Positions 49,472-62,759 of a stretch of DNA of 64,000 bases are shown piece by piece. The stretch's first letter is position 1. Each line of letters starts with the position of its first letter. Below the pieces are notes generated by a model. The model was not told where the DNA came from, ran no database searches, and worked only from the letters and a program-made list of their open reading frames with translations. The translations under genes and the position numbers were made by a program. Origin of the DNA: Halofilum ochraceum (GTDB taxonomy: Bacteria; Pseudomonadota; Gammaproteobacteria; XJ16; Halofilaceae); NCBI RefSeq assembly GCF_001614315.2, contig NZ_LVEG02000016.1:1-64000 (forward strand), in the 5' to 3' direction.

Positions 49472-50329
49472 CTATCCGGACTCTTCCTTGATCTTCAGCA
49501 GGCGTTCCTCCGCCAGCCGCGCCACGGCGCTGTTGGCGTGCTCCTGCGTGACCTTCTCCAGCGCCTCGCGCGCCTCGTCCAGGCGGTCGAGTTCATACAG
49601 CGAATAACCGATCTTCAGGCGCGCGTCCGGCACCTTCGCGCTGTCCGGGTAGTTGGACACCACTTTGCGGAAGGCCTCCAGCGCCGCCGCGAAGTCCCGC
49701 GTGACATAACGCGACTCGCCAAGCCAGTACTGCGCGTTGTCGGAGTACGGCCCCTCCGGGTACTTCTCGACGAAATCACCGAAGGCCGACGCGGCCTCAC
49801 TGTAGCGGCCATCCTTGAGCAGGCTGAAGGCCGCGTCATAGGCTTCCCGCTGGGCGTTCTGATTGGTGCCCGTCTCGCTTCCCGAACCCGCGTCGGGCGA
49901 GTCGCCTTCCGCGCCCGAGGTGGCCGAACCGGCAGCGGCGCCACTGCCGCCGCTGTCCGCACCACCGGAATCGCCGCCGCCTGAACCGCCGCCATTGCTG
50001 TCGGCCTCCTCGGCTTCGGCACCGGCCACTTCCAGCTCGCGGATCCGCCGGTCGAGATCCCCGTAGAGGTTGCGCTGGCGCTCGCGCAGTTCATCCATGC
50101 GATGGCCCTGGGTCTCGAGTTCACCCCGCAGTTCCCGGATCTCCCGTTCCAGCTCGCTCGTGCGCTGGATCAGGTCGGCGATCTGGCCACTGTCGAGGAT
50201 GTTCTCCATGCGGCGCATGCGCCGGTCGAGTTCTTCCACAGTCGGCTCAGCCGCGGCCACTATGGGCGCGGACAGCGCCAAAGCGACGCCCAGAGCGATA
50301 GCGGTCTGTACTGCGCGAACGCGGGCCAT
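49472..50329 (-). CDS. cpoB: Cell division coordinator CpoB (YbgF)
   Basis: 285 residues: a signal peptide (to about IVAAAEP), a trimerising coiled coil (residues about 30-100), a Gly/Ser/Asp-rich linker (about 107-155), and a C-terminal TPR domain (AYDAAFSLLKDGRYSEAASAF onward). It is periplasmic and links Tol-Pal outer-membrane constriction to peptidoglycan synthesis at division. It follows pal by 11 bp, the standard place. Confidence 0.94.
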   Translation of the reverse strand: MARVRAVQTAIALGVALALSAPIVAAAEPTVEELDRRMRRMENILDSGQIADLIQRTSELEREIRELRGELETQGHRMDELRERQRNLYGDLDRRIRELEVAGAEAEEADSNGGGSGGGDSGGADSGGSGAAAGSATSGAEGDSPDAGSGSETGTNQNAQREAYDAAFSLLKDGRYSEAASAFGDFVEKYPEGPYSDNAQYWLGESRYVTRDFAAALEAFRKVVSNYPDSAKVPDARLKIGYSLYELDRLDEAREALEKVTQEHANSAVARLAEERLLKIKEESG

Positions 50330-54884: not shown

Positions 54885-55918
54885 GGCGCTTCGAAAAGAT
54901 CGCTGCCGCCCTGCGCGCGCGGGGCCGCCAGACCGAAATGGATGAACGCCGACTGCGTGGCCACGCGACCACGCGGTGTGCGCATCAACAACCCTTCCTG
55001 AATCAGGTACGGTTCGATGACCTCCTCGATCGTACCCGCCGACTCGCCGATCGCGGCGGCGACATTGTCCAGCCCCACCGGGCCACCGCCGAATTTGTCG
55101 ATGATCGAGCGCAGCAGCCGGTTATCGAGTCCGTCCAGTCCCAGCGTATCCACCTTCAGGAGATCCAGCGCCTCGTCCGCGATCCTGGCGTCGATCACGC
55201 CGTTGCCACGCACCTGGGCGTAGTCGCGCACCCGGCGCAGCAGTCGATTCGCGATCCGCGGAGTCCCCCGCGAGCGCCGGGCGATTTCATGCGCACCGTC
55301 CCCCTCGAGGCGGACATTCATGATGCTGGCCGAGCGCTCGACAATACGCCCGAGATCCGCCGCATTGTAGAACTCCAGACGCTGCACGATGCCGAACCGG
55401 TCACGCAATGGCGATGTCAGCAGACCGGCCCGCGTGGTCGCGCCGATCAGCGTGAACGGCGGCACATCGAGTTTCACCGAACGCGCGGCCGGGCCCTCGC
55501 CGATGACGATATCGAGCTGGTAATCCTCCATTGCCGGGTAAAGCACCTCTTCCACGACCGGGGAGAGGCGATGGATCTCGTCGACGAACAGGACGTCGTG
55601 GGCCTCGATATTGGTCAGGATCGCGGCGAGATCACCGGGGCGTTCGAGCACCGGCCCCGCCGTCTGACGCAGGTTGACACCCATCTCGTGGGCGATGATC
55701 GACGCCAGCGTCGTCTTGCCGAGCCCGGGCGGTCCGAAGATGAGCGTGTGATCCAGCGGTTCGCCGCGCTCGCGCGCCGCGCGCACGAAGATGCCGAGCT
55801 GCTCGTGGACGGTCGGCTGACCGAGATACTCGCCCAGGGTGCGCGGGCGGATAGCGCGATCGGTCGCCTCCTCCTCCGGCATCGACTCGGCGTTCGTCAG
55901 CCGTTCGGGCGTATTCAT
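54881..55918 (-). CDS. ruvB: Holliday junction helicase motor RuvB
   Basis: 345 residues. Walker [10 protein letters not shown] (about 60), Walker B FVDEIHRL, sensor GATTRAGLL and the C-terminal winged helix with PRGRVAT are all intact. It drives branch migration with RuvA. Here it leads the tol-pal operon and is separated from ruvA-ruvC by nearly 6 kb, whereas many relatives keep ruvCAB together. Confidence 0.97.
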
Positions 55919-56055
55919 CGGGCGGCGGTTTCCAGCGCGTCGTTCGGGGGCCCGGGCGATATCCGGGCGACAGCCGGATGCAAACTACCATGGACGTGGG
56001 CGCGATTATACCGGCGCGCCGGCCTTCTGGTGGGCCATGCGCGACGGTCCTGCAT

Positions 56056-56085
56056 AAAAAAAAAGCCCCGTCGGGGGGACGGGGC
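56056..56085 (-). terminator. Rho-independent terminator after EF-hand gene A
   Basis: On the minus strand GCCCCGTC/GACGGGGC arms (8 bp, 5-nt loop) are followed by nine Ts. It ends the transcript of the EF-hand gene at 56217 and insulates ruvB. Confidence 0.92.
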
Positions 56086-56216
56086 ACCAATGGCTGGCCT
56101 GGGATCGTGGGTGCGGGCCACGACCGGGGGAGTCAGGCCAGTGCCAGAGGGGGCACGGCGTTGCCGTCGATTCCCGCGTCGGCGTCGTACGCCCGCGTCA
56201 TCGGCGGAACCCTTGT

Positions 56217-56507
56217 TCAATTGTTCGTGGTTCGAACTCCGGATGCGCTCAACTCCTCATGCCGCAGGAATTCATCCCACACCAGTGTATCATCAGAATC
56301 ACGGTCAAACTTGGCAAAATGTGTTGCCAGTCCCGGATTCGCCTGCGCTTCGCGCCGGCTGATCCGATCATCGGCATTGCGATCGAGGCGCTCGAATTCG
56401 GCCCTGGCGCGGCTCTCCAGATCACCGGTGGGCGTGGCCGTAGCGGCCAGCAGTGCACCCGAGATCAGGATCAGGCCCAGTGTCGTCGTGGCCGAGGCCG
56501 CTTTCAT
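56217..56507 (-). CDS. Small exported EF-hand protein A
   Basis: 96 residues from ATG 56507 with GGAG upstream. A signal peptide (ends near LLAATATP) precedes two EF-hand loops, DRNADDRISRRE (about 43) and DRDSDDTLVWDE (about 69). Calcium-type ligands are mostly kept, but the usual Gly at loop position 6 is Asp in both, which may lower affinity. It is probably periplasmic. A sigma-54 promoter and two TGTC-N10-GACA sites lie upstream, and a strong terminator downstream, so it is a single-gene unit likely controlled by GlrR. Confidence 0.82.
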   Translation of the reverse strand: MKAASATTTLGLILISGALLAATATPTGDLESRARAEFERLDRNADDRISRREAQANPGLATHFAKFDRDSDDTLVWDEFLRHEELSASGVRTTNN

Positions 56508-56585
56508 GCATCGATCTCCAGCGCCGAATCGTTGCGGTCTGTCGCTTTGCCAGCGCCCGGCCCACCCGGCGCGCAATCAGTGCAA

Positions 56586-56601
56586 TGCAGGCGTCGTGCC
56601 A
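56586..56601 (-). promoter_or_regulatory. Sigma-54 promoter of EF-hand gene A
   Basis: TGGCACG-ACGC-CTGCA on the minus strand. GG and GC are 12 bp apart, and it matches the -24/-12 consensus TGGCACG-N4-TTGCA except for one base. The start would be near 56575, about 68 nt before the ATG. Confidence 0.75.
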
Positions 56602-56705
56602 ACTTTATAAAGGCCCTTTTTTCAGGTAGTTATAGACACCTTCAGCGTCAAGGGCCGGAATCGAGCGGCACCGCGACCGGCACAGGCCATCGACAGCGCC
56701 ACAAC

Positions 56706-56723
56706 TGTCGCCGATTGGCGACA
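56706..56723. promoter_or_regulatory. GlrR-type enhancer site 1 (TGTC-N10-GACA)
   Basis: TGTCGCC-GATT-GGCGACA, a perfect palindrome with the exact TGTC-N10-GACA recognition pattern of GlrR/QseF. It is centred about 140 bp upstream of the sigma-54 start of EF-hand gene A. Confidence 0.75.
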
Positions 56724-56772
56724 CCCTGACGGTGCGGAATCCGCAGGTTATTGATTTTTGGGATTATTGATC

Positions 56773-56790
56773 TGTCGCCTGACGACGACA
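56773..56790. promoter_or_regulatory. GlrR-type enhancer site 2 (TGTC-N10-GACA)
   Basis: A second exact TGTC-N10-GACA, 67 bp from site 1 and 34 bp before the divergent GNAT start. An A/T-rich stretch lies between the two sites. It could act on EF-hand gene A and perhaps on the acetyltransferase. Confidence 0.7.
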
Positions 56791-56823
56791 GGGCGACTCG
56801 CCACGGGGCAAATGGAGACCAGA

Positions 56824-57570
56824 ATGACGCAATCGGGCCGTGGGCTACAGGGAACAGCGACGGCGGGAGAACCGGTGCCGGAGCGGCGCCCCATGGACCG
56901 CCCCACCCGCTCGCCGCTCGAGGGCACCGCCGTGACCGTGCGCCCCCTCGCTCCGGCGGAGGACCTGCCGGCGCTGTACAGCGCATCCCATGGCGATCCG
57001 GAGACCGAGGCCCTGTGGGCATGGATGCCCTATGGCCCGTTCGCCGACCGGGATGCGATGGGGGCATGGCTGGAGACCTGCGCGGCAAGCACGGATCCGG
57101 CGTTCCGCGCGGTGGTCGACCATGCCAGCGGCCGCCCGGTCGGGATGGTGAGCTACCTGAACATCGAACCGCCCCACCGGCGGCTGGAACTCGGCCACAT
57201 CTGGTATGCGCCATCCGTGCAGCGCACGCGCACGAACACCGAGGTGATCCGCCTCCTGCTGGGCGAGGCATTCGACCGGCTTGGCTGCCGCAGGGTGGAG
57301 TGGAAATGCGACGCCCTGAACGCGCGCTCGCGGGCTGCCGCCCTGCGTCTGGGATTCCGCTTCGAGGGCGTGTTCCGCCAGCATATGATCGTCAAGGGCC
57401 GTAATCGGGACACGGCGTGGTTCGCGCTGATGGACGGGGATTGGCCCACGGTACGCGGCCATATGGATCGCTGGCTGGCCGCGGACGGAGCCGGGCTCTC
57501 ACTGACCGCCCTGAACCGGCCGCTGGTCGAGTACGATCCGGCGGCCAGCGAGCAGCCCCCGGGTGGCTGA
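56824..57570 (+). CDS. GNAT-family N-acetyltransferase (RimJ/RimL-like)
   Basis: 248 residues from ATG 56824 (GGAG upstream). After a 35-residue Arg/Pro-rich lead, the fold begins AVTVRPLAPAEDLPALY; the GMVSYLNIEPPHRRLELGHIWY and ALRLGFRFEGVFRQHMIVKGRNRDTAWFAL segments (both well known from this group, acetyl-CoA site between) place it with YJDJ/RimL-type transferases that act on small molecules or protein N termini. Substrate unknown. It is divergent from EF-hand gene A across the GlrR-type sites and convergent with EF-hand gene B. Confidence 0.85.
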   Translation: MTQSGRGLQGTATAGEPVPERRPMDRPTRSPLEGTAVTVRPLAPAEDLPALYSASHGDPETEALWAWMPYGPFADRDAMGAWLETCAASTDPAFRAVVDHASGRPVGMVSYLNIEPPHRRLELGHIWYAPSVQRTRTNTEVIRLLLGEAFDRLGCRRVEWKCDALNARSRAAALRLGFRFEGVFRQHMIVKGRNRDTAWFALMDGDWPTVRGHMDRWLAADGAGLSLTALNRPLVEYDPAASEQPPGG

Positions 57571-57674
57571 TCGACCAGTCGCTGATTTGCCGCCGGGGGA
57601 GCATGGACACCGCCGTCCCGGCATCGCCGGAGACGGCCCCGGCGGCGAGGTTCCGTCCGCGCTGGACCGCCCAC

Positions 57675-57703
57675 AAAAAAAGCCCCGCTCTGAAGAGCGG
57701 GGC
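57675..57703 (-). terminator. Rho-independent terminator after EF-hand gene B
   Basis: On the minus strand GCCCCGCTC/GAGCGGGGC (9-bp stem, 4-nt loop) is followed by seven Ts. It lies 52 nt past the EF-hand B stop. It may also hinder read-through from the convergent GNAT gene. Confidence 0.9.
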
Positions 57704-57754
57704 CACACCAGGGGGATCACCCTGTCACTTCACGACCGCATCGGTCGCCCGTGA

Positions 57755-58060
57755 TCAATAGTCCGTTTCACCTTCGGACTCTTCATCCATCGCCGGATCC
57801 GACTCGGACTCTTCGCCCGCGTCCGGACCGCCGACGCCAACCTCGCTCTCGTCGAGCACGCCATCGGCGTTCGCATCGAGGGAGTCGAAGCTTTCCGCCA
57901 GGCCCGGCGCCGTTTCGGCTTCATCGCGGGTGACGATGCCGTCACCGTTCGCGTCGATTTCGCTGAATGACATGTCGGTCGCGCCTTCCTCGGTGGCGGC
58001 AAACACCGTACCGCTCGCCACCAGAAGCATCATCGGGAACAGCAGTTTCGTGTATTTCAT
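57755..58060 (-). CDS. Small exported EF-hand protein B
   Basis: 101 residues with a signal peptide (MKYTKLLFPMMLLVASGTVFA) and two EF-hand loops, DANGDGIVTRDE (about 37) and DANADGVLDESE (about 62). The first is fully canonical for calcium. The tail after residue 75 is Asp/Glu/Ser/Gly-rich. It is probably a secreted or periplasmic calcium-binding protein. It has a near-perfect sigma-54 promoter and an upstream TGTC-N10-GACA site and ends at its own terminator, mirroring EF-hand gene A. It lies directly downstream of glrR. Confidence 0.85.
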   Translation of the reverse strand: MKYTKLLFPMMLLVASGTVFAATEEGATDMSFSEIDANGDGIVTRDEAETAPGLAESFDSLDANADGVLDESEVGVGGPDAGEESESDPAMDEESEGETDY

Positions 58061-58136
58061 GGCTGATTACCTCGGAAACCGCAAACTGCGGATACTCATA
58101 TCGAGTCGGCGGGATCGCCGCTCTGCCGGATGGGAT

Positions 58137-58152
58137 TGCAAGCGCCGTGCCG
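58137..58152 (-). promoter_or_regulatory. Sigma-54 promoter of EF-hand gene B
   Basis: CGGCACG-GCGC-TTGCA on the minus strand matches TGGCACG-N4-TTGCA except at the first base, with correct 12-bp GG/GC spacing. The start near 58126 gives a leader of about 65 nt, almost the same as for EF-hand gene A. Confidence 0.8.
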
Positions 58153-58247
58153 CCTCCGACAATTTGTTCCCGATCAAGCACTTGCGGACATCCGACCGCT
58201 CGAGCGACAACTGCATGAACCACCCCGCGGGCGCGGGACGCGAAAGC

Positions 58248-58265
58248 TGTCGTCTGCCGCCGACA
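58248..58265. promoter_or_regulatory. GlrR-type enhancer site 3 (TGTC-N10-GACA)
   Basis: An exact TGTC-N10-GACA centred about 130 bp upstream of the EF-hand B start, between that promoter and the glrR stop codon. A degenerate half-site (CCGA-N10-GACA) lies at about 58192-58209. Confidence 0.75.
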
Positions 58266-58290
58266 TCACCCCCGCGATCCATCCCATGGA

Positions 58291-59628
58291 TCAGCCGGCG
58301 CTCTTGAAATCACCCGGGTCGATGTCGTGACGCGAGAGCAGTTTGTAGAACTCCGACCGGTTGCGCTGGGCCACGCGGGCGGCCTCGCTGACATTGCCCT
58401 CGGTCAGTTTCAGCAGGCGTACGAGGTAATCGCGCGTGAACTGGGCCCGGGCATCGGCGACCGAGGGGAACGCGGTAACCTCATCGCCGAGGCTCCGCCG
58501 TACCTGCTCGGCGGTGATTACCGTCCCCGGCGCGAGGGCGACGTGCTGCTCGACGACATTGTCGAGCTGGCGCACGTTGCCCGGCCAGCGCGCGGCGACC
58601 ATGCGTTCCATCGCCTCGGGCGCATAGACCTTGACCCGCTCCCGGTCGCGCTCGGCCAGCGCGCGCAGGCGCCGGTTGATGAGCAGGGGGATGTCTTCGG
58701 GTCGTTCGCGCAGCGGTGGCAGCTGCAGCTCGATCACGTTCAGGCGGTAGAACAGGTCTTCGCGGAACTCGCCGGCGGCGATCGCCTCACTGAGCTGGCG
58801 GTGGGTGGCCGACAGGATGCGCACGTCGACCGGGAAATCGCGCGTGCCGCCGACCGGACGCACGCGCCGTTCCTGCAGGACCCGTAACAGCTTGACCTGC
58901 AGGGGCAGCGGCATATCGCCGATCTCGTCCAGCAGGAGGGTGCCACCGTCGGCCGAACGGATCAGGCCGGTCGTGGCCTGCTGAGCGCCGGTGAACGCAC
59001 CGCGTTCATGCCCCATCAGTTCGGATTCCAGCAGGCCCTCGGGCATGGCGCCGCAGTTGATGGCCACGAAGGGTCCGTCGCGCCGCGGGCTCGCGCGATG
59101 CATGGCGCGCGCCAGCAGTTCCTTGCCGGTCCCGCTCTCGCCCCGGATGAGGACGCTGGTGCCGGTGGCCGCGACACGACGTGCCTGCTCCAGCAGTTCC
59201 TCCATGCGCGGACTGCGGGTGACCATCCCCGAGCGCCAGTCATCGGGTACGTCGGCGTGAGCGGTCAGATTCAGGGCCCGCTCGAGTTCGGACATCAACT
59301 CTTCGCGGTCGACCGGCTTCGTGAGGAAGGCAACCGCGCCATGCTGGGTCGCGCTGACGGCGTCGGGGATCGTCCCGTGCGCGGTCAACAACAGGACCGG
59401 CACACCCGGCTGTCGGCGCTGCAGTTCCCGCAGCAGACCCAGGCCGTCCATACCGTCCATGCGCAGATCGGTGATCACGGCATCGGGCACCGATTGCTCC
59501 ACGCGGGCCAACGCCGCGTTGGCCGAATCAGCGGTCTGGACGGTGTAACCCGCCGACTGCAACCGGATGTCGAGCAGGCGCAGCAGCGAGGGGTCGTCAT
59601 CGACGACCAGGATGTGTCCCGCTTTCAT
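58291..59628 (-). CDS. glrR: Sigma-54-dependent response regulator GlrR (QseF)
   Basis: 445 residues. The receiver domain has ILVVDDDPSLLRLL with phospho-Asp in VITDLRMDG (about 53). The AAA+ domain has Walker A GESGTGKELLA, the sigma-54 contact GAFTGA and Walker B GGTLLLDEIGD. A C-terminal Fis-type helix-turn-helix (EGNVSEAARVAQRNRSEFYKLL) follows. It is activated by the histidine kinase GlrK and opens sigma-54 promoters; in E. coli it drives glmY and contributes to rpoE. Its stop is near a GlrR-type site and a sigma-54 promoter for EF-hand gene B. It overlaps qseG by 4 nt. Confidence 0.95.
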   Translation of the reverse strand: MKAGHILVVDDDPSLLRLLDIRLQSAGYTVQTADSANAALARVEQSVPDAVITDLRMDGMDGLGLLRELQRRQPGVPVLLLTAHGTIPDAVSATQHGAVAFLTKPVDREELMSELERALNLTAHADVPDDWRSGMVTRSPRMEELLEQARRVAATGTSVLIRGESGTGKELLARAMHRASPRRDGPFVAINCGAMPEGLLESELMGHERGAFTGAQQATTGLIRSADGGTLLLDEIGDMPLPLQVKLLRVLQERRVRPVGGTRDFPVDVRILSATHRQLSEAIAAGEFREDLFYRLNVIELQLPPLRERPEDIPLLINRRLRALAERDRERVKVYAPEAMERMVAARWPGNVRQLDNVVEQHVALAPGTVITAEQVRRSLGDEVTAFPSVADARAQFTRDYLVRLLKLTEGNVSEAARVAQRNRSEFYKLLSRHDIDPGDFKSAG

Positions 59629-60176
59629 TCGCTGCCCCCTTCAGTGCCAGTCGAGCCACCACCACCGGCCCCGCGGCCGGAGTCGCCCTGTTCTCCATCC
59701 GGGCCATTGCCCCCCATCTGCCGCTCCAGCGCCGTCAGTTCCTGGATCTGCTGCTGCAGCTGGCGATTTTGGGCGGCCAGGCCCACCGTCTCCTGCCGCA
59801 GTTCCAGCTGCGTACGCAGGTGGCGCAGGTGCAGGCGGACCAGCGCACGCGTCGGCGCATCGAGCGCGGTCGAGCGGGTCGCCAGGGCCTCCAGCGCGTC
59901 ACGGGCGCCAGACGGATCATGGCCCTCGTGCCCCGGGGTGGCCAGCCACATGGCATGACGCAGCAGCGCGCCCGGCTCGTCGAGCGGCGCCGGCCGCCGC
60001 GCCGGCATGGTGGCCAGTTCGTCCGCCGGGGCGACCGCGAGGCGATCCGCGAAATACAGCAACTCCGCCACACGCGGATCCGATCGCGTGTCGTTGCGGA
60101 TGGACTGCTCCGCGCCGAAACGGACGCAGCCCGTCAGCGCAACCACCGCGATGACCAGCATGGGCCCTGCCTTCAT
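59625..60176 (-). CDS. qseG: QseG-like lipoprotein between kinase and regulator
   Basis: 183 residues with a lipobox (IAVVALTGC, Cys 17), an alpha-helical middle with a coiled coil (LELRQETVGLAAQNRQLQQQ, about 123-142) and a Gly/Ser-rich tail. Position between glrK and glrR and size match QseG, the outer-membrane lipoprotein that activates the kinase QseE/GlrK in the periplasm. Sequence similarity to QseG is loose, so the name rests mainly on context. Confidence 0.78.
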   Translation of the reverse strand: MKAGPMLVIAVVALTGCVRFGAEQSIRNDTRSDPRVAELLYFADRLAVAPADELATMPARRPAPLDEPGALLRHAMWLATPGHEGHDPSGARDALEALATRSTALDAPTRALVRLHLRHLRTQLELRQETVGLAAQNRQLQQQIQELTALERQMGGNGPDGEQGDSGRGAGGGGSTGTEGGSE

Positions 60177-61621
60177 TCGATTCCCCCGATACGTGGCCGT
60201 TGCTGGGCGTGCAGTGTTATACGGATATGGGCCCCGGGATACTCGCCGTCAACAATTTCGACCCGCCCATCGTGTGCCCGGACACAGTCGCGCACGACCG
60301 ACAGGCCGACACCGGTCCCGCGTACGTGCCCCTGGGGCGACGCCTCGCCCTGGAAAAAAGGCTCGAAGACATGGGGCCGTTCAGCGGCCGGGATTCCCGG
60401 CCCCTCGTCGGCGACCTCGATGATCAGGCGCTGGCCGCGCCGCCTGGCCCGCACGTAGAGCGCTCCCCCCTCGGGCGAGAAACGGATGGCGTTGCCGATC
60501 AGATTCGATACCGCGCTCTGCAGCACGGAGCGGAAGCCGTCGAAGCCGCGCCCGTCGACCTGACGCTCCACCTCGAGCCGGGCACTGCTGATGGCGAGCC
60601 GATGGCGTGAGATGGCCTCGTCGATGAGGGCGGCCGGATCGATGTGCTCCGGTTTGCGGGACAGGTCCCGGGCACTCAGGACCAGCAGGTTCTCGATCAG
60701 CTGCTGGAGTTCGACACTGGAGCTGCGCAGGATGTCGACGATCTCGCGGTGCGCCGGGGTGTCCACGCCGACCGAGCCATCGGCGATCAGCTCCGTGCCC
60801 TCGCGGATCGCCGACAACGGGGTCTTCAGTTCGTGCGACATGTGCCGCAGGAAACGGTTCTTCTCCGCCTCCGAGCGATCCAGACGCACCCGCAGGCGCT
60901 CGAGTTCTTCGCCCAGATCGCGGATCTCCGGCGGCCCACCGACGGCGATGGGCGCCGGCGGCTCGACCGCACCGAGACTGCGGATCGCGCGACCCAGGCG
61001 CCCGATCGGCCGCAGGATCAGCCAGGCGAAAAGCGCGGTGAGGGCCAGCGTGATCGGGACCAGGGTGACCGTCAGCCAGAACAGGAACTCGCGCACCCGG
61101 GCCGACTGGCGCTCCAGCGCATCGAGTTCCGCGCGGATCGCGGTATCGGCGGCGCGGGCGATCCCCGTGGCCAGGTCCCGCATGCGGGCGAATCGTTCCA
61201 GTGCCGCGACCAGCGATTCGCTCGACGGGTCCGCCTCGGCGATGGCGCCCGACACCGACTCCGCTATGCCCCGGAGTTCCATGCGTGCGTCCGCGGCCCC
61301 TGGATCGAGGCTCACGGAGCCCAGCGAATCCAGCGTCTCCGTGAGTTGCGTGTGGCGCTCCTGGTAGAGACCCACCAGCTCGTCGCGTCCGAGGATCCGG
61401 TACTGGCGGGCGTTGCGTTCCATCTGCAGAAGCTGCGTCTCCAGCGTCTGCCCCTGGCGCGACAGCATGACGCCATCACGAACCAGCTGCTCGCTGCGCC
61501 GTGTCAGGCGATCCAGGTAGACCGAGCCACCGACCACGGCCACCAGCAACGGCAGTGCGACCAGCGCGAAGCCGGCCACCACCAGCATGACCATGGAGTA
61601 GAGCCGACGCCTCCCCCTCAA
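60173..61621 (-). CDS. glrK: Sensor histidine kinase GlrK (QseE)
   Basis: 482 residues: two membrane helices (about 9-33 and 180-202) around a helical periplasmic domain, a HAMP region, the H-box HMSHELKTPL (His about 264) and N, G1 and G2 boxes (NLIGNAIRF, DEGPGIP, GTGVGLSVV). It phosphorylates GlrR in response to envelope signals. I use TTG 61621, which overlaps the ruvA stop (TTGA) and keeps the basic N-tail; ATG 61594 is the alternative. This fuses the two-component system to the ruvCA operon. Confidence 0.9.
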   Translation of the reverse strand: MRGRRRLYSMVMLVVAGFALVALPLLVAVVGGSVYLDRLTRRSEQLVRDGVMLSRQGQTLETQLLQMERNARQYRILGRDELVGLYQERHTQLTETLDSLGSVSLDPGAADARMELRGIAESVSGAIAEADPSSESLVAALERFARMRDLATGIARAADTAIRAELDALERQSARVREFLFWLTVTLVPITLALTALFAWLILRPIGRLGRAIRSLGAVEPPAPIAVGGPPEIRDLGEELERLRVRLDRSEAEKNRFLRHMSHELKTPLSAIREGTELIADGSVGVDTPAHREIVDILRSSSVELQQLIENLLVLSARDLSRKPEHIDPAALIDEAISRHRLAISSARLEVERQVDGRGFDGFRSVLQSAVSNLIGNAIRFSPEGGALYVRARRRGQRLIIEVADEGPGIPAAERPHVFEPFFQGEASPQGHVRGTGVGLSVVRDCVRAHDGRVEIVDGEYPGAHIRITLHAQQRPRIGGIE

Positions 61622-62232
61622 CGCGCCGCCGCCTGGAGGGCACGGCGGATGATGTCCTCCGTGGACAGACCGTTGGTGTCGATCCCCCGGATCATCTTCG
61701 CCGCTTCCGCCTGGCGGTACCCCAGTGCCACCAGCGCGCTGGCGGCGTCGTTCACCGGATCGGCCGGCGCGTCGCCGTCGGCCGCCGGGGCCTGGCCCGC
61801 CGCGGCGGGCAGCGCGTCACGCAGATCGGTATCGCTGAGGCGATCGCGCATCTCGACGATCAGGCGCTCGGCCGTCTTCTTGCCGATGCCCGGCAGCTTC
61901 GTCAGGGCCGTGACATCGTCGGTCTCGATGCAGCGCGCGAAGGCGTCCGCGCTCATGCCGGACAGGACCGCCAGCGCCATCTTGGCGCCCACGCCGGAGA
62001 CCTTGAGCAGTGCGCGGAACAGACGCCGTTCGGACTCGCGCGCGAAGGCGAACAGAAGCTGCGCATCCTCGCGCACGACGTGATGGGTGAACAGCGTGAC
62101 CGTCTCCCCCACCGCCGGCAGGTCGTAGAACGTGGACAGCGGCGCCTCGAGTTCATAGCCGACGCCGCCGACGTCGATCATCAGGCCCGGAGGCTGTTTC
62201 GACACCAGCGTGCCGCGGAGTCTGCCGATCAT
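61618..62232 (-). CDS. ruvA: Holliday junction branch migration protein RuvA
   Basis: 204 residues from ATG 62232, overlapping the ruvC stop (ATGA). [20 protein letters not shown] opens the OB fold; the HhH motifs are [17 protein letters not shown] and [19 protein letters not shown]; the C-terminal RuvB-binding domain ([18 protein letters not shown]) is complete. It binds four-way junctions. The frame remains open upstream, but that part is ruvC on another frame. Confidence 0.96.
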
Positions 62233-62759
62233 TTCCAGCGTACCGATTTGCGTCGGCGGCCGGCGTTGAGCACCGGGGCCGGACGCGTGCGTGCATGGGC
62301 GTGGCAGAGCGCGATGCCGAGCGCATCGGCCGCATCCGCCTGCAGTTTGCCGTTGAGGCCGAGCAGCACCTTGACCATGTGCTGCACCTGCTCCTTGCCG
62401 GCGCCGCCGACGCCGACCAGCGTCTGTTTGACCAGCCGCGCCGGATACTCGCCCACCGGCAGCTCCGCGGCGACGCCGGCACAGATCGCGGCGCCGCGCG
62501 CCTGGCCGAGCTTGAGCGCGGACATGGCGTTGCGGGCGACGAACACCTCCTCGATACCCATCTCGGCGGGCCCGTGTTCCAGGATTACGGCGGCGACCTC
62601 GCGCTGGATCACGCCCAGGCGCTCGGGCAGCGAACCACTGCCCGTGGCGATGGCGCCGTGGGCGACGTGGTGGCTGCTGCGGCCATCGCTGTCGATCACG
62701 CCCCACCCGGTCGTGACCGAACCGGGATCGATACCGATAATGCGAACGGATTCGGCCAC
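62229..62759 (-). CDS. ruvC: Crossover junction endodeoxyribonuclease RuvC
   Basis: 176 residues from GTG 62759. The RNase H-like active site is present: [13 protein letters not shown] (Asp about 10), [10 protein letters not shown] (Glu about 69), and [15 protein letters not shown] (two Asp). It resolves Holliday junctions. It starts 15 bp after yebC and overlaps ruvA. Confidence 0.96.

Follow-up and report, generated by a model that had tools for sequence, protein, structure and literature searches.

The sensor kinase GlrK and its response regulator GlrR (QseE/QseF) have, in the accessible papers, been studied mainly in enterobacteria, and their known direct sigma-54 targets there are glmY and rpoE. 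Upstream of glmY, QseF binds to three sites with the consensus TGTN12ACA (PMC6075780), which a Proteus paper gives as TGTCN10GACA (PMC8745638), and the P2 promoter of E. coli rpoE is likewise a sigma-54 promoter with QseF-type sites upstream (PMC6075780). We found three exact copies of TGTC-N10-GACA at E. coli glmY, including TGTCGCTTTCTGGCGACA, at 107-203 nt upstream of the -24 box. As for the operon itself, the accessible text of a survey of QseEGF across Pseudomonadota states that qseG is consistently present between qseE and qseF, and treats the manner in which the QseEGF signal is switched off as an open question (PMC12691602). Bacterial EF-hand proteins are on record from elsewhere: in the available portions of two papers, EfhP from Pseudomonas aeruginosa is reported to bind Ca2+, and CaBP from Caulobacter is periplasmic and displays a Ca2+-dependent mobility shift; these portions make no mention of GlrR/sigma-54 control (PMC9132961, PMC13171946).

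Here, we analysed a window of 64,000 nucleotides from Halofilum ochraceum (the window being the whole stretch of DNA under study), in which two small genes for predicted exported EF-hand proteins, A and B, lie downstream of a glr operon, each behind its own candidate control region:

56065-56085, minus strand: intrinsic terminator 3' of gene A.
56217-56507, minus strand: gene A, a 96-aa exported EF-hand protein (export predicted), with its ATG and length kept in the congener G001 (86% identity).
56586-56601, minus strand: sigma-54 promoter of A, TGGCACG-N4-CTGCA (TGGCACGACGCCTGCA), with 12 of 12 specified bases kept in G001.
56706-56723, no strand assigned: candidate GlrR site A1 (TGTCGCCGATTGGCGACA), a 7-bp inverted repeat with its core kept in G001 and an extension nearly as in an E. 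coli glmY site.
56773-56790, no strand assigned: candidate GlrR site A2, 67 bp from A1, with core and spacing kept in G001.
57681-57704, minus strand: intrinsic terminator 3' of gene B, which in G001 is directly 3' of glrR.
57755-58060, minus strand: gene B, a 101-aa exported EF-hand protein (export predicted), with a Pfam EF-hand above cut-off.
58137-58152, minus strand: sigma-54 promoter of B, CGGCACG-N4-TTGCA (CGGCACGGCGCTTGCA).
58172-58184, plus strand: possible IHF site (GATCAAGCACTTG) matching 8 of 9 consensus positions, a weak call given three further 8-of-9 matches upstream of A.
58248-58265, no strand assigned: candidate GlrR site B1 (TGTCGTCTGCCGCCGACA); B is absent from G001.
58291-59628, minus strand: glrR, a response regulator and sigma-54 activator with receiver and sigma-54 domains.
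59625-60176, minus strand: lipoprotein-like gene, in qseG position by location only.
60173-61621, minus strand: glrK, a sensor kinase with 32% identity to E. coli GlrK.

The regulator encoded here shares 59% identity with E. coli GlrR. Its best NCBIfam model is PRK15115 with 627.6 bits, which is under the equivalog cut-off of 763, and so the orthology rests on the best model, the sequence identity, and the operon context. Moreover, the recognition helix in the Fis-type HTH is nearly the same in the two proteins (RNRSEFYKLL here and RNRTEFYKLL in E. coli), the pattern RNR[TS]EFYKLL being conserved. The order of glrK, a small lipoprotein gene, and glrR is that expected of the operon. The initial annotation had placed glrR-qseG-glrK directly beside gene B, and this stands for glrR and glrK. 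For the middle gene, position and a lipobox-like start agree with qseG, but its product has no significant BLAST similarity to E. coli QseG, and the name therefore rests on position. This lipoprotein is 75% identical to its G001 counterpart, versus 96% for GlrR. A gene for RpoN is present in the source genome.

Exact TGTC-N10-GACA occurs four times in the 64-kb window, against 0.77 copies expected, and four copies were reached in none of 100 shuffles. Three of these are intergenic, two of them upstream of A and one upstream of B, just where they had been annotated, and the fourth is at 49642. A second, degenerate site for B was searched for and not found. That this sequence is the GlrR/QseF recognition site, as had been proposed, agrees well with the three exact copies at glmY and the nearly identical recognition helix. 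The near-consensus -24/-12 elements claimed for both genes were also found, and these two 16-nt elements are the sole exact pattern matches in the window, so that A and B alike have TGTC-N10-GACA upstream of a GG-N10-GC promoter. The distances given earlier need to be read with care. A promoter 65-70 nt before the ATG holds for the predicted transcription start, but the -24 box starts 94 nt (A) or 92 nt (B) before the ATG and the -12 element ends at about 77-79 nt. Similarly, placing the sites at -130 to -210 fits when counted from the transcription start; the distance from the start of a site down to the -24 box is 189 and 122 nt for A and 113 nt for B.

Across the whole genome (3.64 Mb), the motif count is at background (31 versus 33 for the reversed control). 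What is unusual is thus the clustering of three copies beside glrR, each before a near-perfect -24/-12 element aimed at an EF-hand gene. When all 31 exact genomic sites were checked for a downstream sigma-54 promoter, one borderline candidate emerged beyond A and B (L011). At this locus (G000:C4:522957), a 122-aa ORF with a signal-like start is preceded by a strong sigma-54-like box, TGGCACGGCGTTTGCG, and, 70 nt further upstream, by an exact TGTC-N10-GACA with a weak extension (2/6). The L011 gene is possibly a third regulon member in the source genome, judging by this arrangement.

Compared with the glmY-glrK-qseG-glrR locus of E. coli, the likeness extends to the regulator, the recognition helix, the type of site with its GC-rich extension, and a target by the operon, as well as to sites located some 100-200 nt upstream of a sigma-54 promoter. 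In contrast, the E. coli target is a small RNA upstream of glrK, and not an exported EF-hand protein downstream of glrR. The site layouts are also different, with three sites spaced 33 and 63 bp at glmY, as opposed to two (67 bp) for A and one for B. E. coli rpoE P2 is alike in that sigma-54 and QseF-type sites precede a gene for envelope homeostasis, although there the target is a sigma factor rather than an exported protein. A search of 55500-62500 with the Rfam GlmY model gave no match.

In both A and B, a signal-like N-terminal stretch and two EF-hand loops are predicted. Each of the paired 12-residue loops in the two proteins has acidic or amide ligands at positions 1, 3, and 5 and a Glu at position 12. 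Gene B scores above the Pfam cut-offs for EF-hand_5, EF-hand_1, and EF-hand_6, whereas A reaches 21.9 bits for EF-hand_6, under the 25-bit cut-off, and has Gly6 replaced by Asp in both loops. The earlier description of two signal-peptide EF-hand genes is consequently sound as to the signal-like stretch and the loops, with A falling short at Pfam. Ca2+ binding is predicted from these ligand patterns for both proteins, and more weakly for A. The structure model of B is an EF-hand pair (approximately residues 30-76) with a block pLDDT of 84-90, the mean over the whole chain being 67, and a Foldseek search with this model returned EF-hand proteins as the best matches, none of them at E < 0.001, a result of little weight. 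With EfhP and CaBP, A and B have in common that they are bacterial EF-hand proteins, a likeness in the EF-hand. Lanmodulin, of which a Pro at loop position 2 is a feature, resembles them as an exported EF-hand protein with a weak NCBIfam match; it differs since A and B have two loops only and no Pro at that position. Lanmodulin identity was rejected, as the scores of 21.6 and 28.3 bits compare with a LanM equivalog cut-off of 135. Gene B had no match in the plasmid collection. Each of the two genes is followed by its own terminator, which suggests that A and B are transcribed separately. Elsewhere in the genome, search hits alone point to an open frame of 202 aa in which several segments resemble EF-hands (L188, G000:C4:114000-118500).

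Two congeners, G001 and G002, were available for comparison (three Halofilum genomes including the source). In G001, GlrR is 96% identical, and gene A (86% identical) keeps both sites, the 67-bp spacing, and the sigma-54 box, so the sites have not been lost from this close relative. Upstream of A, 323 bases were aligned between the two genomes. No change was seen at any of the 28 core positions that make up the promoter and the pair of sites, whereas 167 of the remaining 295 positions agree (57%; Fisher p=5e-7). Gene B is absent from G001, and the terminator seen after B here directly trails glrR there. B and its entire control region (57681-58290) sit between the glrR stop and what in G001 is the terminator adjoining glrR (L030). 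From this alignment, B with its control elements would be a single cassette that was cleanly gained or lost between the two genomes. An orthologue of GlrR is missing from G002, where the best match is partial, at 46% identity; in keeping with the annotated link to GlrR, G002 lacks A and B as well, with unrelated genes between ruvA and ruvB. The pattern is consistent with a module gained or lost as a whole, although a set of three genomes is small.

To place the locus more widely, GlrR homologues (E <= 1e-120) were sought and found in 94 of 369 gammaproteobacterial genomes. The survey set of 102 GlrR loci, including the window, was picked by the GlrR protein alone, and took in most neighbourhoods of the 94 genomes plus 13 named GlrR-like loci (among the 80 matches listed). 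As controls, we used 67 loci around other sigma-54 activators from the same 80 matches listed. Here, TGTC-N10-GACA was counted 98 times in the GlrR loci versus 13 for the reversed motif, and six times versus six in the controls, which cover a wider bacterial range than the GlrR loci. The density peaks in the first 130 nt past the glrR stop (28 versus 2 reversed), with a second peak upstream of glrK, and 20 of the 35 site pairs within 300 bp are spaced 66-67 bp. Of the 94 GlrR-positive genomes, 16 contain the extended palindrome TGTCGCC-N4-GGCGACA, versus 3 of the 275 GlrR-negative ones (p=5e-8, the survey p-values treating loci as independent, which those of related genomes are not). One of these three GlrR-negative genomes, G066, does carry a truncated GlrR, which shares a contig with the palindrome and adjoins an EF-hand gene that has paired sites.

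When searched with an EF-hand-pair profile, 30 of the 102 GlrR loci yielded a total of 36 small ORFs and the 67 control loci yielded none (p=4e-8), a result in which the contrast with the controls weighs more than the raw count, because the profile was built from members met earlier in these same loci. Pfam EF-hand_1 matched 30 of the 32 members scanned, and 33 of the 36 ORFs have two loops fitting the ligand pattern. Exact sites precede 19 of the 36 EF-hand genes versus 63 of 3033 other ORFs (p=9e-22), and 22 of 36 versus 19 of 3033 are preceded by both a GlrR-type site and a sigma-54 element, the latter scored by a matrix hand-set from the known consensus. Of the 14 EF-hand genes with no detectable site plus sigma-54 element, some come second or later in a tandem (L114, L152, and L207), and others may be driven by different promoters. 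Linkage is loose at two of the 30 loci, with the EF-hand gene 2.3 kb off (L034) or 1.9 kb off on the opposite strand (L079). In Neptuniibacter marinus (L207:3153-3821), glrK is immediately preceded by two tandem exported EF-hand genes, for which there is a single exact GlrR-type site but no sigma-54 box above threshold. The scan of related genomes that had been suggested thus shows co-recurrence of sites, sigma-54 promoters, and EF-hand genes, and the label of a local regulon has to be given up, as the arrangement is not peculiar to the source genome and recurs in some 20 families (19 families plus Neptuniibacter and Wenzhouxiangella, the latter represented by W. sediminis, L209). Mapped onto the GlrR tree, the EF-hand linkage takes 16 changes, of which well-supported branches force at least 11, versus 26 for shuffled labels; it is scattered, yet less so than under shuffling. 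In about 70% of GlrR loci, there is no EF-hand gene nearby, and so EF-hand proteins are not a universal output.

We consider it very probable that phosphorylated GlrR, together with sigma-54, switches on the exported EF-hand proteins A and B, and that this is a recurrent output of the regulon. The basis is sequence anatomy, conservation, co-occurrence, and statistics, from which we infer GlrR binding, transcription, export, and Ca2+ binding. Against this stands the thought that another sigma-54 activator uses the sites and GlrR is a mere neighbour. Several such activators are probable in the genome (57 first-look candidates with a GlrR query, not all of them true), but site density follows GlrR loci and not those of other activators (98:13 versus 6:6), the extended palindrome follows GlrR presence, and the site is that of E. 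coli QseF with the recognition helix conserved, which leaves this option very unlikely. Also, since the two sites of A lie between it and a divergent acetyltransferase gene (56824-57570, plus strand) that is kept in G001 (81% identity), they might serve the latter; to this we give even less credence, as the promoter and sites are paired so as to aim at A only and no sigma-54 element toward the acetyltransferase passed the threshold. As for chance, by which GC-rich intergenic DNA would yield motif and promoters and synteny accidents the EF-hand neighbours, the short motif is indeed at background genome-wide, but the G001 conservation, the pair spacing, and the contrasts of EF-hand with other ORFs and of GlrR with control loci contradict it, and we regard it as negligible.

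An alternative that leaves GlrR control unchanged concerns what the proteins do. CpxP is a small periplasmic product that is induced by the envelope two-component system beside its gene and acts on CpxA. By functional analogy with it, and by analogy only, as the fold differs from that of A and B, the EF-hand proteins could associate in the periplasm, in a Ca2+-dependent way, with GlrK or the qseG-position lipoprotein and so turn the system down or tune it. The product is predicted to be exported, and its gene is located by the sensor operon in some 20 families under that operon's own regulator. Then again, many GlrR loci have no EF-hand gene, L114, L152, and L207 have two or three copies, and the CpxP/CpxA parallel is known biology used as an analogy. 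We thus see this role as rather unlikely. Its wider form, with the EF-hand proteins as the missing periplasmic feedback arm of GlrK/QseG/GlrR that makes the switch Ca2+-responsive across much of the gammaproteobacteria, and glmY as one alternative among several, appears slightly more doubtful again.

In the preferred reading, control of A and B by GlrR, phosphorylated GlrR would activate RNA polymerase with sigma-54 from TGTC(GCC)-N4-(GGC)GACA sites to which it binds some 95-190 nt ahead of the -24 box. Two short units would then be transcribed, A from two sites and B from one, each up to its own terminator. Once in the periplasm or at the envelope, the products would most likely act as binders of divalent cations, with Ca2+ as the probable ligand. 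Their role is the least certain step, for which our best guess is that they may buffer Ca2+ or stabilise the envelope during the GlrK response. The combination of GlrR sites, a sigma-54 promoter, and an EF-hand gene by the glr operon would recur across gammaproteobacteria, in parallel to glmY in enterobacteria. That gene and site go together in some 20 families points to a widespread output, so far undescribed, of a switch familiar mainly from gut bacteria. The system is of a known kind, and it is the output of the known regulator that is new. Our literature search, which took in few of the subscription papers and no bioRxiv preprints, found no account of GlrR/QseF with EF-hand proteins or opgG, and the initial annotation's statement that no such regulon had been described stands within that scope; the accessible text of the QseEGF survey does not contain 'EF-hand' and does not treat such targets (PMC12691602).

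If the EF-hand output recurs in some 20 families, it would show what GlrK/GlrR controls outside enterobacteria, and it would link the EF-hand proteins of bacteria to a defined regulator of the envelope. For the question of how QseEGF is switched off, as raised in the available part of that survey (PMC12691602), the EF-hand proteins would offer a concrete candidate. Moreover, the site model (TGTCGCC-N4-GGCGACA, pairs at 66-67 bp, and about 93 nt between the nearer site and the sigma-54 box) is usable for GlrR regulon prediction.

EF-hand genes are, from their sequence context, seemingly one of several envelope-related outputs by glrR, along with opgG/opgH, BON-domain genes, and glmY. The common theme of genes under GlrR-type sites is the envelope, which fits glmY and rpoE as targets in E. 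coli. Among nine loci tried, the Rfam GlmY model matched in Arsenophonus only. GlrR-type sites and sigma-54 boxes precede opgG in L116 (MdoG by Pfam), and in L031 sites and a sigma-54 box precede an unnamed small gene that comes before an opgG-like gene. In Comamonadaceae, opgH-like genes, named from sequence features, are under such sites (L206, L210, and L212). BON-domain genes are found under GlrR-type sites in L035 and L114, and an EF-hand pair fused to a BON domain is similarly placed in L085:4429-4986 and L095. Further genes under sites with sigma-54 boxes include one for a sugar transferase (L148) and an acyltransferase-like one (L104).
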